A stretch of 44,845 nucleotides of DNA from NCBI GenBank assembly GCA_002715985.1, contig PBAO01000060.1, positions 1 to 44,845 of the forward strand, read 5' to 3'. Position numbers and translations under genes: made by a program. Shown here piece after piece: positions 33,879-37,751 of the stretch. The notes under the pieces are model-generated. The model saw only the letters and a program-made list of their open reading frames with translations, did no database searches and had not been told where the DNA came from. Position 1 is the first letter of the stretch. Each line of letters starts with the position of its first letter. The DNA comes from Lysobacterales bacterium (lineage in GTDB: Bacteria; Pseudomonadota; Gammaproteobacteria; Nevskiales; Salinisphaeraceae).

Positions 33879-34724
33879 TCATCGAGCCTTCGGCGCGTTG
33901 CTTTGTGCACGGTCGTCACGGCTCGTCCCCGAGCCCAGCCGGGATAGATCGAACACGGCGGTCTCGTGCCAGATCTGGGCGAGACGCTCGCCGAAGGCCT
34001 CGATGAGAGCCGCGCCTTGTTCGGCGGTGGCACTGGCGGCGTTGCCGGTCACGCCTTGGGCGTTGAGATCCTCGGCGCGCCAAGCGAAGCCGGCATCGCC
34101 TTCCGGCCCGAGCGTGGCCCCGCTTGCCGCGCGCTCGGCGCCGTAGCTGGGGAAATCCGCCAGCGCGTCGCGGCGAACCCGTGCCGGCGCCAGATGCAGC
34201 ATCATCGCGGTTTCCAGTGCCCCGCCGTGCAGGCCGTGCGCCAGTTCGCTGGCGGCCAGCGTGTCGGCCGGCGGCGTGAAGCGGAAATAGCTGGCCTTGA
34301 CGACCAGCAGGCCATGATCGCTTCGCATCTGCAGAGCGGCCATATCGAGGGCGGCCTTGTTGCCGCCGTGGCTGTTGAAGATCACCAGGCGCCTGATACC
34401 GGCGCCGGCCACACCGGCGCCATAGGCCCGCAGCTGGGCCATTGCCTGTTCGCCGGACACACTCAGCGTGCCGGCAAAGCCGGTGTGTTCCAGACTGGCC
34501 CCCAGCGTCATGGCGGGTAGAACGATGATCGGGGCACGATTTTCGGGATAGCCGCGCCCGGCCGCCTCGATCAGCCCTGCACCGATGACGACATCGGTAT
34601 CCAGCGGCAAATGCGGGCCGTGTTGTTCGATCGCGGCCATCGGCAGCACCGCCACGGGATCGGCTTCGGCCAATGCGGCCAGCTCCGGGCCGGTCAGATC
34701 AGCCCAGCGATAAAGTACGCTCAT
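33879..34724 (-). CDS. Creatininase-family amidohydrolase
   Basis: From ATG 34724 the product is 281 residues starting MSVLYRWADLTGPELAALAE. Metal-binding residues are present: IEQHGPHLPLDTD (Glu 33, His 35, Asp 44), NSHGGNKAALDM and HGGALETAMM. The family includes creatinine amidohydrolase, the mycofactocin factor MftE and the archaeal FAPy deformylase ArfB that acts in riboflavin and F420 synthesis. Next to a GTP cyclohydrolase II and a RibD-type reductase, an ArfB-like formamide hydrolysis is the most attractive guess. It is convergent with ribA across 34 bp. The start upstream of ATG 34724 was rejected because the family begins there. Confidence 0.85.
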   Translation of the reverse strand: MSVLYRWADLTGPELAALAEADPVAVLPMAAIEQHGPHLPLDTDVVIGAGLIEAAGRGYPENRAPIIVLPAMTLGASLEHTGFAGTLSVSGEQAMAQLRAYGAGVAGAGIRRLVIFNSHGGNKAALDMAALQMRSDHGLLVVKASYFRFTPPADTLAASELAHGLHGGALETAMMLHLAPARVRRDALADFPSYGAERAASGATLGPEGDAGFAWRAEDLNAQGVTGNAASATAEQGAALIEAFGERLAQIWHETAVFDLSRLGSGTSRDDRAQSNAPKAR

Positions 34725-34801
34725 CAATCGGCAAGTCGTCGAGCAAGTGCTGCCATGATGAACAAAGGCCGCTCGTCTGCCCAGCACGCGATCCGTGCGA
34801 C

Positions 34802-35082
34802 AGGCCCTGTGGCCATGGCATGCCGGCGCCGCTTGCGTCGAGCGTCTGCAGTATCCTGCCCGGCACGAGCCGCCGCTCGTGGCGTGCCACGATCACGGCT
34901 CGCAACGCCGCCGGGCACCCATCGTCAATCTCTGATGAGCGGCCCACCCCGAGGGCCGAGCGCCGTTGCGTATTGATACAGTGCCCGCCCACCGGCGCGG
35001 AATGGCACGCTAGGCAAGCTGCGCCTCGTCTCGAGACACAACAGCGCTCGGCGCGGGCTCGCATGAAACAGCAACAGGCCCT
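34802..35082 (-). repeat. MITE-like dispersed repeat, copy E1
   Basis: About 281 bp on the minus strand are homologous along their full length to 36803-37096 in the opposite orientation. The better preserved end, read inwards on the minus strand, is AGGGCCTGTTGCTGTTTCAT (ending at 35082); the other end is eroded. Interior blocks shared with E2 include GATCGTGGCAC and a TCGTGCCGGGCAGGATACTG-like segment. It has no convincing ORF. It lies between the divergent creatininase and antiporter genes, 40 bp before the latter. Confidence 0.75.
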
Positions 35083-35121
35083 ACGCTTTGGCTCGCACGC
35101 CTTCGCGACCACCCCACGCCG

Positions 35122-36780
35122 ATGACGATCGTTCTGACCAGTCTCATTCTATTGTTCGCCGTGGCGATATCCGGCGTAATGATCGGCGTTCTGCCCTTTC
35201 ATCTGCCGCGCCCGCTGGTCCAGATCGCCCTGGGCGCCGGGCTGGCCGTGCCGAGTTTCGGCATGCACGTGGCGCTCGATCCGGAGATATTCTTCGTGCT
35301 GTTCGTGCCCCCGCTGCTGTTCATCGACGGCTGGCGGATGCCACGGCGCGAGTTTCGGCATCTGGCGATGCCGATCACGGCCCTGGCCCTGGGCCTGGTC
35401 ATGGTCACCGTGGCCGGCGTGGGGTTTTTCATTCATTGGCTGATTCCGGCGATTCCCCTGGCTGCGGGCTTTGCCCTGGGGGCCGTGCTCTCGCCCACCG
35501 ATGCGGTCGCCGTGTCGGCGATCACCGGCGGAGCGTCCATCCCGCCGCGGCTGCTGCATATCCTGCAGGGCGAGGCCTTGATGAACGATGCATCGGGCCT
35601 GGTCGCGCTGCGTTTCGCGATCGCCGCCGCGCTGACGGGCACGTTCTCGATCGGCCAGGCAGGCGTAAGCTTCGTTCTGATCGGCGGCGGGGGCCTGGCC
35701 ATCGGCGTGGCGATCGCCTGGGTATTCGCCCAGGTCCGCCAGCTGATGACGCAGTGGCGCGGAGACGATCCCGCCAGCCATGTCACGCTGCTGGTCCTGT
35801 TGCCCTTCGCAGCTTATCTGCTGGCCGAGCATCTGGGCGTTTCGGGCATTCTGGCCGCCGTGGCGGCCGGCATGACGCTGAACAGCCTGGATACACTCAA
35901 GGGCGAGCTCAACACACGCCTGCAGTCACGCGGCATGTGGCCGATGATCGAGTTCGTGTTCAACGGGCTGATATTCGTGCTGCTGGGCCAGCAGATCCCG
36001 GCGATTCTCTCGCTGGCCGACAATGCTCGCGTGAATATGGAGCTGTCCCGGTTCGAGATCGTGGCTTATCCGCTGGCGTTGTTCGGTCTGCTGCTGGCGA
36101 TTCGATTCGTGTGGGTCGGCGCGCTGCTCAAGCTCGTGGTCTGGCGGGCACGCCGACGCGGCGAGCGTATCCGGCGGGCGTCGAGCCGTGTGGTTGCAGC
36201 GACCACGGTCGCCGGGGTGCGCGGGGCCATCACGCTGGCGGCCGTGCTGTCATTGCCGATCGCCGCGCACGAGGCCAGCGGATTTCCGGCCCGTGGATTG
36301 CTGATCTATTTTGCTGTGTGCGTGATTCTGGCGTCGCTATTGCTGGCCACGTTCGCGCTTCCGCTGCTGCTGCGCGGCATCGAACTGCCCGAGGATGACC
36401 CGCGCGCCGTCGAAGAGCGTCATGCTCGGGCCGAGGCCGCCCGATCCGCGATCCGCCGGCTCGATGACATGCGCGAGCAACGTCGTGAAGAAGCCGATGA
36501 CGAGGACGAGGCCTCGCTGTATTCCGAAGTGGCCGGGCGCATCATGGCGGCCTATCAGCCGTGGCTGGATCCGGATTCTGACGCCGAGGACAAGCAACGC
36601 GCCCGACGCGGTTTCACCATGGAGCGCAGCCTGCGTCTGGCCGCGCTGGCCGCCGAGCGCGACGCCCTCTATCGGCTGCGCCACGAGGGCAATATCAACG
36701 ACATCACCATGCGCCGTATCCTGGCCGATATCGATCTGACCGAAGCCTCGCTGCGTAGCGGGCGGCGTAACAAGTCATAG
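35122..36780 (+). CDS. CPA1-family Na+/H+ antiporter
   Basis: The 552-residue product begins MTIVLTSLILLFAVAISGVM. About 12 membrane helices span residues 1-415. Antiporter signatures are VLFVPPLLFIDGWRMPRREF, ALGAVLSPTDAVAVSAITGG (the TDAVAVS ion-binding helix), LHILQGEALMNDASGLVALR (the ND pair) and AATTVAGVRGAITLAAVLSL. A cytoplasmic tail of about 130 residues is charged and helical, as in YjcE-like members. It exchanges Na+ (or K+) for H+ across the inner membrane. The gene is bracketed by inverted repeats E1 and E2 with 39-bp and 22-bp gaps. Confidence 0.93.
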   Translation: MTIVLTSLILLFAVAISGVMIGVLPFHLPRPLVQIALGAGLAVPSFGMHVALDPEIFFVLFVPPLLFIDGWRMPRREFRHLAMPITALALGLVMVTVAGVGFFIHWLIPAIPLAAGFALGAVLSPTDAVAVSAITGGASIPPRLLHILQGEALMNDASGLVALRFAIAAALTGTFSIGQAGVSFVLIGGGGLAIGVAIAWVFAQVRQLMTQWRGDDPASHVTLLVLLPFAAYLLAEHLGVSGILAAVAAGMTLNSLDTLKGELNTRLQSRGMWPMIEFVFNGLIFVLLGQQIPAILSLADNARVNMELSRFEIVAYPLALFGLLLAIRFVWVGALLKLVVWRARRRGERIRRASSRVVAATTVAGVRGAITLAAVLSLPIAAHEASGFPARGLLIYFAVCVILASLLLATFALPLLLRGIELPEDDPRAVEERHARAEAARSAIRRLDDMREQRREEADDEDEASLYSEVAGRIMAAYQPWLDPDSDAEDKQRARRGFTMERSLRLAALAAERDALYRLRHEGNINDITMRRILADIDLTEASLRSGRRNKS

Positions 36781-36802
36781 GCAGGCGATACCTCGAATCC
36801 TT

Positions 36803-37096
36803 GGGGCCTGTTGTCGTTTCATGCGGGCCCGCGCCAAGCGCTCCATGTCGTGACTATGGGCAGCAACACGAGGCGTCGCCCACTTGGCCTGTCATTCCGC
36901 GCCAGTGGGCTAGGACGTGTCGTCAATTTCAGGGCGCTGGTCCCTTCGGTCGGGCCACCCGAAAAAATTGAAGATGGGCGCCCGGCCGCAGGCGCGTCTT
37001 GATCGTGGCACAGCCAGAGCCGCGACTCGCGCCGTGCAGGACACACTGCAGATTCTCGACGAAAGCGGCGCTCGCGTGAAACGGCAACAGGCCCTA
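36803..37096 (+). repeat. MITE-like dispersed repeat, copy E2
   Basis: A 294-bp element with terminal inverted repeats. The left end is GGGGCCTGTTGTCGTTTCAT. The right end, read inwards, is AGGGCCTGTTGCCGTTTCAC. It aligns along its whole length with E1 in inverse orientation, at roughly 70-75 per cent by eye. It lies 22 bp after the antiporter and 34 bp before the flavin-reductase gene. No ORF of its own is credible. No clear target-site duplication is visible. Confidence 0.8.
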
Positions 37097-37130
37097 GAGT
37101 GTCGTCTACAGATTGTTAGCCGATTGCCCC

Positions 37131-37751
37131 ATGAACCACGATTTTCATTTTTACGAGCCGGCGGCCGGGCACGGTCTGCCGCACGATCCGTTCAATGCGC
37201 TGGTCGCCCCGCGCCCGATCGGCTGGATCTCGTCGGTCGCCGCCGACGGCACCTACAACCTGGCGCCGTACAGCTTCTTCAATGCCTTCAACTACACGCC
37301 GCCGATCGTCGGCTTTGCCAGTGTGGGTTACAAGGACTCGGTGGCCAATATCGAAGCCACCGGCGAATTCGGCTGGAATCTGGCGACCCGTGATCTGGCC
37401 GAGCCGATGAATGAAAGCTGCGCGGCCGTCGATGCCAGCGTCGATGAGTTCGAGCTGGCCGGCCTCACCCCCGCTGCCTCGCGCGTGATCAGCGCCCCGC
37501 GCGTGGCCGAGGCGCCGGTATCCTTCGAATGCCGGGTCAGCCAGGTGCTGCGCCTGACCGGGGCCGATGGCGGCCAGACCGATACGTGGATGGTCTTCGG
37601 CGAAGTCGTCGGCGTCTATATCGCGAAACATCTGCTGGTCGACGGTATCTATGACACCGCGGCCGCGCACCCGATTCTGCGTGCCGGAGGCCCGGCGGAT
37701 TACTTCGACATATCGGCCGATCAGCGCTTTCAGATGCATCGGCCCGGCTGA
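37131..37751 (+). CDS. Flavin reductase-like domain protein
   Basis: From ATG 37131 the product is 206 residues (MNHDFHFYEPAAGHGLPHDP). The split-barrel FMN-binding fold of the flavin reductase/DIM6 family is shown by LVAPRPIGWISSVAADGTYN, LAPYSFFNAFNYTPPIVGFA, NIEATGEFGWNLATRDL, TWMVFGEVVGVYIAKHLL and the closing FDISADQRFQMHRPG. Such proteins reduce flavins with NAD(P)H or bind FMN in other oxidoreductases. Repeat E2 ends 34 bp upstream and may hold its promoter. Partners are not obvious. Confidence 0.88.
   Translation: MNHDFHFYEPAAGHGLPHDPFNALVAPRPIGWISSVAADGTYNLAPYSFFNAFNYTPPIVGFASVGYKDSVANIEATGEFGWNLATRDLAEPMNESCAAVDASVDEFELAGLTPAASRVISAPRVAEAPVSFECRVSQVLRLTGADGGQTDTWMVFGEVVGVYIAKHLLVDGIYDTAAAHPILRAGGPADYFDISADQRFQMHRPG

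Follow-up and report, generated by a model that had tools for sequence, protein, structure and literature searches.

Two inverted repeats flanking a Na+/H+ antiporter gene in Salinisphaera are probably independent insertions of a dispersed MITE family

The window analysed here, a stretch of 44,845 nucleotides from a Salinisphaera genome, contains a Na+/H+ antiporter gene that is flanked by two repeats in opposite orientation, E1 (34803 to 35081, minus strand) and E2 (36804 to 37094, plus strand; the coordinates cover the bodies of the repeats and leave out the flanking target dinucleotides). Judged from comparisons with related genomes, E1 and E2 are very probably independently inserted copies of a non-coding Salinisphaera MITE which an IS5-type transposase would mobilise, with the antiporter gene not being carried by them.

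When reverse-complemented, E1 aligns with E2 over the whole length at 72% identity and with a score of 238, whereas 300 shuffles average 12.7 (sd 5.6) and never exceed 44, and the direct orientation scores 80; BLASTN yields 71.7% identity over 297 columns (E ~1e-33). The terminal inverted repeat of E2 is 88% complementary (36804-36828 vs. 37070-37094), and comparing terminal repeats between the elements gives 90% for 35043-35081 of E1 and 36804-36842 of E2. The left terminal repeat of E1 is degenerate. E1 lies 39 bp and E2 22 bp from the antiporter gene, and the distance from the repeats to the plus-strand start codons (35122 and 37131) is 34-39 bp. The first-pass annotation had thus described the locus correctly, with regard to the full-length match in opposite orientation, terminal inverted repeats of about 26 bp, gaps of 39 and 22 bp and the placement of both repeats shortly before plus-strand starts. 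Besides E1 and E2, no further copies were found within the window.

The antiporter gene (35122 to 36780, plus strand; PF00999, Pfam E 4.5e-65) belongs to a conserved cluster, with a creatininase-family gene upstream (33879 to 34727, minus strand; PF02633, E 4.7e-63) and a flavin reductase-like gene downstream (37131 to 37751, plus strand; PF01613, E 1.8e-18). E1 occupies the divergent gap between the creatininase and antiporter genes, and E2 the gap between the antiporter and flavin reductase genes. The order of the three genes is kept in S. japonica YTM-1 (genome G013, locus L046), Salinisphaera sp. Q1T1-3 (locus L047) and the genomes G002, G006 and G008, and partly in G009. The elements around these genes differ: the cluster of G002 contains none, S. 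japonica possesses E2 at the same place (82% identical) and lacks E1, Q1T1-3 shows a remnant of about 25 nt where E2 sits, G006 has an upstream 272-nt copy of another subtype and G008 a truncated upstream copy. At the position of E1, S. japonica shows a single TA, and its antiporter gene retains its own 38 bp upstream. These differing sets of elements indicate that E1 and E2 were inserted independently and at different times, with E2 predating the separation from S. japonica and E1 following it; less simply, E1 could have been precisely lost in S. japonica. The antiporter gene is hence a normal resident of the cluster, lying outside of either element and no cargo of the repeats.

The first-pass annotation had likened the locus to a composite mobile cassette, a reading in which E1, E2 and the antiporter gene would travel together. 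While a single gene tightly flanked by inverted copies invites this reading, the same cluster has E2 but not E1 in S. japonica, no element in G002 and another upstream copy in G006, and E1 and E2 are merely 72% identical. In a composite transposon the flanked gene travels with the flanking copies; here, relatives carry the gene with none, one or other copies. The conserved cluster in relatives missing one or both repeats and the differing insertion times of E1 and E2 contradict the proposal, to which we give next to no credence, and the comparison of these loci excludes a composite transposon as the cause of the arrangement. Instead, both gaps of a conserved cluster would have been hit by MITE insertions, leaving the gene flanked and itself uncarried.

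To place E1 and E2 in a genomic context, E2 was used as query against the window's own genome assembly (2.37 Mb, 72 contigs, 82% complete). The search returned 74 matches, among them many full- or half-length copies at distinct places. According to the first-pass annotation, absence of the repeats elsewhere in the genome, together with conservation only at this locus in relatives, would have marked them as local regulatory DNA; with many copies elsewhere this does not apply. In a wider search of 41 genomes, the family was present in all 14 Salinisphaera genomes (the own genome and 13 relatives, the best match being weak in two of them), in one of the three genomes that represent other genera of the taxonomic family, and in none of the 24 genomes sampled elsewhere in the order. 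The one match outside Salinisphaera, in G016, is weak (E 4.3e-8). A 20-base terminal pattern, allowing up to 3 mismatches, was counted 56 times in the own genome, 160 times in S. japonica and 136 times in the complete genome G008, compared to 1, 3 and 6 times, respectively, for the reversed control pattern. Matches in plasmid and phage collections stayed at chance level, revealing no relatives of the MITE there, and literature searches yielded no description of such repeats in Salinisphaera.

The copies are non-coding, 261-322 nt long and end in inverted repeats of about 20-31 bp. Their lengths cluster at 271/272, 285-287, 298-301 and 312-313 nt, which results from four modules being either present or absent, one measuring 3 bp and the others about 14 bp each; 12 of the 16 possible combinations of these hairpin modules were seen. 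G008 additionally contains extremely short derivatives with both terminal repeats kept, namely L166:1476-1563 (88 bp) and L076:1501-1560 (60 bp). In the own genome, the loci L006:1499-2184 and L018:1-661 (contigs C25 and C64) agree at 91% identity over the element and some 390 bp of flanking sequence, reflecting either a duplicated segment or a mixture of strains in the assembly.

Copy ends read TA followed by GGGCCTGTTGCCGTTTCR, and the insertion target is Y-TA-R. Among the 144 ends of 72 full-length copies, TA is found at 103, and the base outside of it is C at 101 and T at 34. The base inward of TA is G at 143 of the 144 ends, even where a 4-bp duplication would demand A. Since this inner G appears irrespective of the opposite outer base, the duplication corresponds to TA within YTAR. 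The S. japonica empty sites corresponding to E1, L004 and L016 contain TA once, and the one corresponding to L014 contains TG once. At L005, L018 and L022, the S. japonica counterparts contain remnants or extra bases and are not clean empty sites; thus, decay or imprecise loss also occurs. For E1, the left target dinucleotide (34801 to 34802) now reads CA, as aligned to the S. japonica empty site G-TA-G, and the right one (35082 to 35083) is TA, in keeping with the TA rule. For E2, the left dinucleotide (36802 to 36803) is TG here and TA in S. japonica, and the right one (37095 to 37096) is TA by sequence and by comparison with S. japonica. Within one copy, the left and right ends match at 0.937, compared to 0.867 (sd 0.004) for shuffled ends.

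A candidate for the mobilising activity is an IS5-family insertion sequence of 859-864 bp that is present in four sister genomes, G001, G003, G006 and G007, with the frame being broken in G003. Its transposase matches PF13340/PF01609 and NF033580 (E 5e-74), and the element may belong to the IS427 group of IS5, as its size and target suggest. Its ends equal MITE ends, reading TAGGGCGTGTTGAGGTTTCA in G006 and TAGGGCGTGTTGCCGTTT in G007 and G003, as does the right end in G001, TAGGGCCTGTTGATGTTTCA, in each case with TA outside. Moreover, the MITE subtypes show the same end variants as the IS5-family elements. Insertion sequence and MITE resemble each other over only about 20 terminal bp, so the MITE core is not a simple deletion product of this insertion sequence. 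The family therefore differs from IS5-derived MITEs whose core arose by internal deletion, a core that is unnecessary for mobilisation in trans. Neither the own genome assembly (82% complete) nor S. japonica or G008 yielded an intact helper, with G008 giving only a weak and interrupted family match. Taken together, the IS5-family insertion sequence is the likely helper. Its transposase would bind the common ends of about 20 bp in trans, mobilise the MITE and insert it at YTAR sites with duplication of TA, after which the copies would decay neutrally.

Other partners were considered. An IS630/Tc1 element, prompted by the TA targets, was rejected as the IS630 elements of G008 and G013 have other ends. 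Two long pairs of terminal inverted repeats in G008 (989 and 2228 bp) were discarded as autonomous elements, with ordinary genes lying inside. Independently of this, a MITE copy in S. japonica is directly followed by the start of an unrelated IS630-type element (L176:1-200, contig C9), and a lone MITE end in G008 has a transposase-like ORF of a different kind right next to it (L136:3002-3781).

In summary, the repeats are short, non-coding and multicopy, possess terminal inverted repeats, leave a target-site duplication evidenced by empty sites and have an autonomous element with the same ends in four sister genomes. The MITE-like nature that the first-pass annotation had assigned to E1 and E2 is hereby confirmed by the dispersed multicopy family, the terminal inverted repeats, the TA target with empty sites and the IS5-family ends. 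We class the family of E1 and E2 as a new one within an established type of element.

As both repeats end close to start codons, they had also been proposed to provide promoters. No sigma-70-like promoter was found between 34700 and 37250 (0.3 expected), leaving this proposal unsupported, and the nearness to start codons is accounted for by insertion into short intergenic gaps. According to a simple home-made gene caller, 60 of 69 copies are intergenic, in gaps of all orientations. A related view holds that copies were co-opted as regulatory DNA, with E1 altering the divergent promoters and E2 serving as mRNA attenuator or processing site. It draws on the position of E1 in the divergent gap, 39 bp upstream of the antiporter gene, where G006 has another copy of the family, on the very stable folds, and on Correia and ERIC elements, which affect transcripts (PMC10969869); transcript or regulatory effects of other MITEs are listed in the same review (PMC10969869). 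The lack of a sigma-70-like promoter in this interval, the reduction of E2 to a remnant in Q1T1-3 and the occupation of gaps of every orientation speak against co-option, as does the lack of terminator-like sites within E1 and E2, the two sites found in 34700-37250 both falling inside the antiporter gene. We therefore regard co-option as unlikely, although E1 may influence the divergent promoters, or E2 the gene that follows it.

The whole MITE can be folded as a branched hairpin, with predicted z values of -6.5 (plus strand) and -4.8 (minus strand) for E2 and -3.6 for E1. Covariation was evaluated in a homogeneous set of 22 copies of 271-272 nt, as the alternative modules misalign among all 72. 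The base pairs predicted for both strands number 103 and are 97.1% paired in this set. Both partners have changed in 23 pairs, whereas shuffling yields 8.6 (sd 1.7) and sliding the partner yields 2-5. Such strong covariation could point to a structured non-coding RNA, or an element acting at the RNA level, with the fold under selection. An RNA under selection tolerates G-U on its strand and does not tolerate A-C. Over the shared pairs of the 22 copies, G-T and A-C mismatches number 28 and 39, and in the terminal repeats of the 72 copies 35 and 33, the cells being non-independent in both counts. This parity speaks against selection for an RNA on one strand. With the terminal TA target, the insertion-sequence-like ends and no Rfam family matching the window at the gathering score, we consider the RNA reading very improbable.

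The parity fits arm matching at the DNA level followed by neutral decay, which is an indication and not a proof. At the hairpin tip, around columns 136-138 of alignment A1, either GAA or its reverse complement TTC is repeatedly found, as if flipping at the DNA level. We tentatively raise the idea, on balance doubtful, that a process acting on DNA and not on RNA keeps the element palindromic throughout, e.g. via a single-stranded or cruciform transposition intermediate or hairpin copying from arm to arm. If true, this would explain the compensatory changes in internal stems, the GAA/TTC tips, the interchangeable modules (12/16) and the absence of a bias of G-T over A-C.

The family of E1 and E2 adds a large, genus-wide MITE family and a candidate helper transposase to the marine, salt-tolerant genus Salinisphaera, and shows that reading an ion-transport gene as the cargo of a composite transposon, however inviting, is mistaken. 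With occupied and empty sites in closely related species, end subtypes shared by insertion sequence and MITE, and internal stems that covary, the family represents a natural data set on MITE palindromes, serving the question why bacterial MITEs remain palindromic past the ends needed by the transposase.

With regard to known systems, the arrangement at the antiporter locus resembles TIMEs and TIME-COMP, in which a gene is flanked by two miniature elements; these Tn3-derived elements are reported to mobilise the intervening DNA (PMC4133298, PMC13367494), whereas synteny shows that the intervening gene is no cargo here. ERIC and Correia elements are likewise intergenic, of high copy number, foldable into long hairpins and present in length variants (PMC10969869). 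They are unrelated in sequence. Apart from a single weak match, the Salinisphaera family was found only in that genus, and it has an insertion sequence as candidate helper. Closest among the described elements is MITEPsy1 of Pseudomonas syringae, an IS5-type MITE of 100 nt with 6 copies, a 4-nt duplication, ends reading GGAAGGTCTGAAAAAGCC and demonstrated transposition into CTAG/YTAA targets (PMC3189936). Compared to MITEPsy1, the family described here has unrelated ends and duplicates 2 nt, TA within YTAR; its copies are longer (261-322 nt), reach tens or more per genome and possess a modular core. Common to both are a non-coding miniature element, IS5-like ends, a CTAG/YTAA target and a related full-length insertion sequence.
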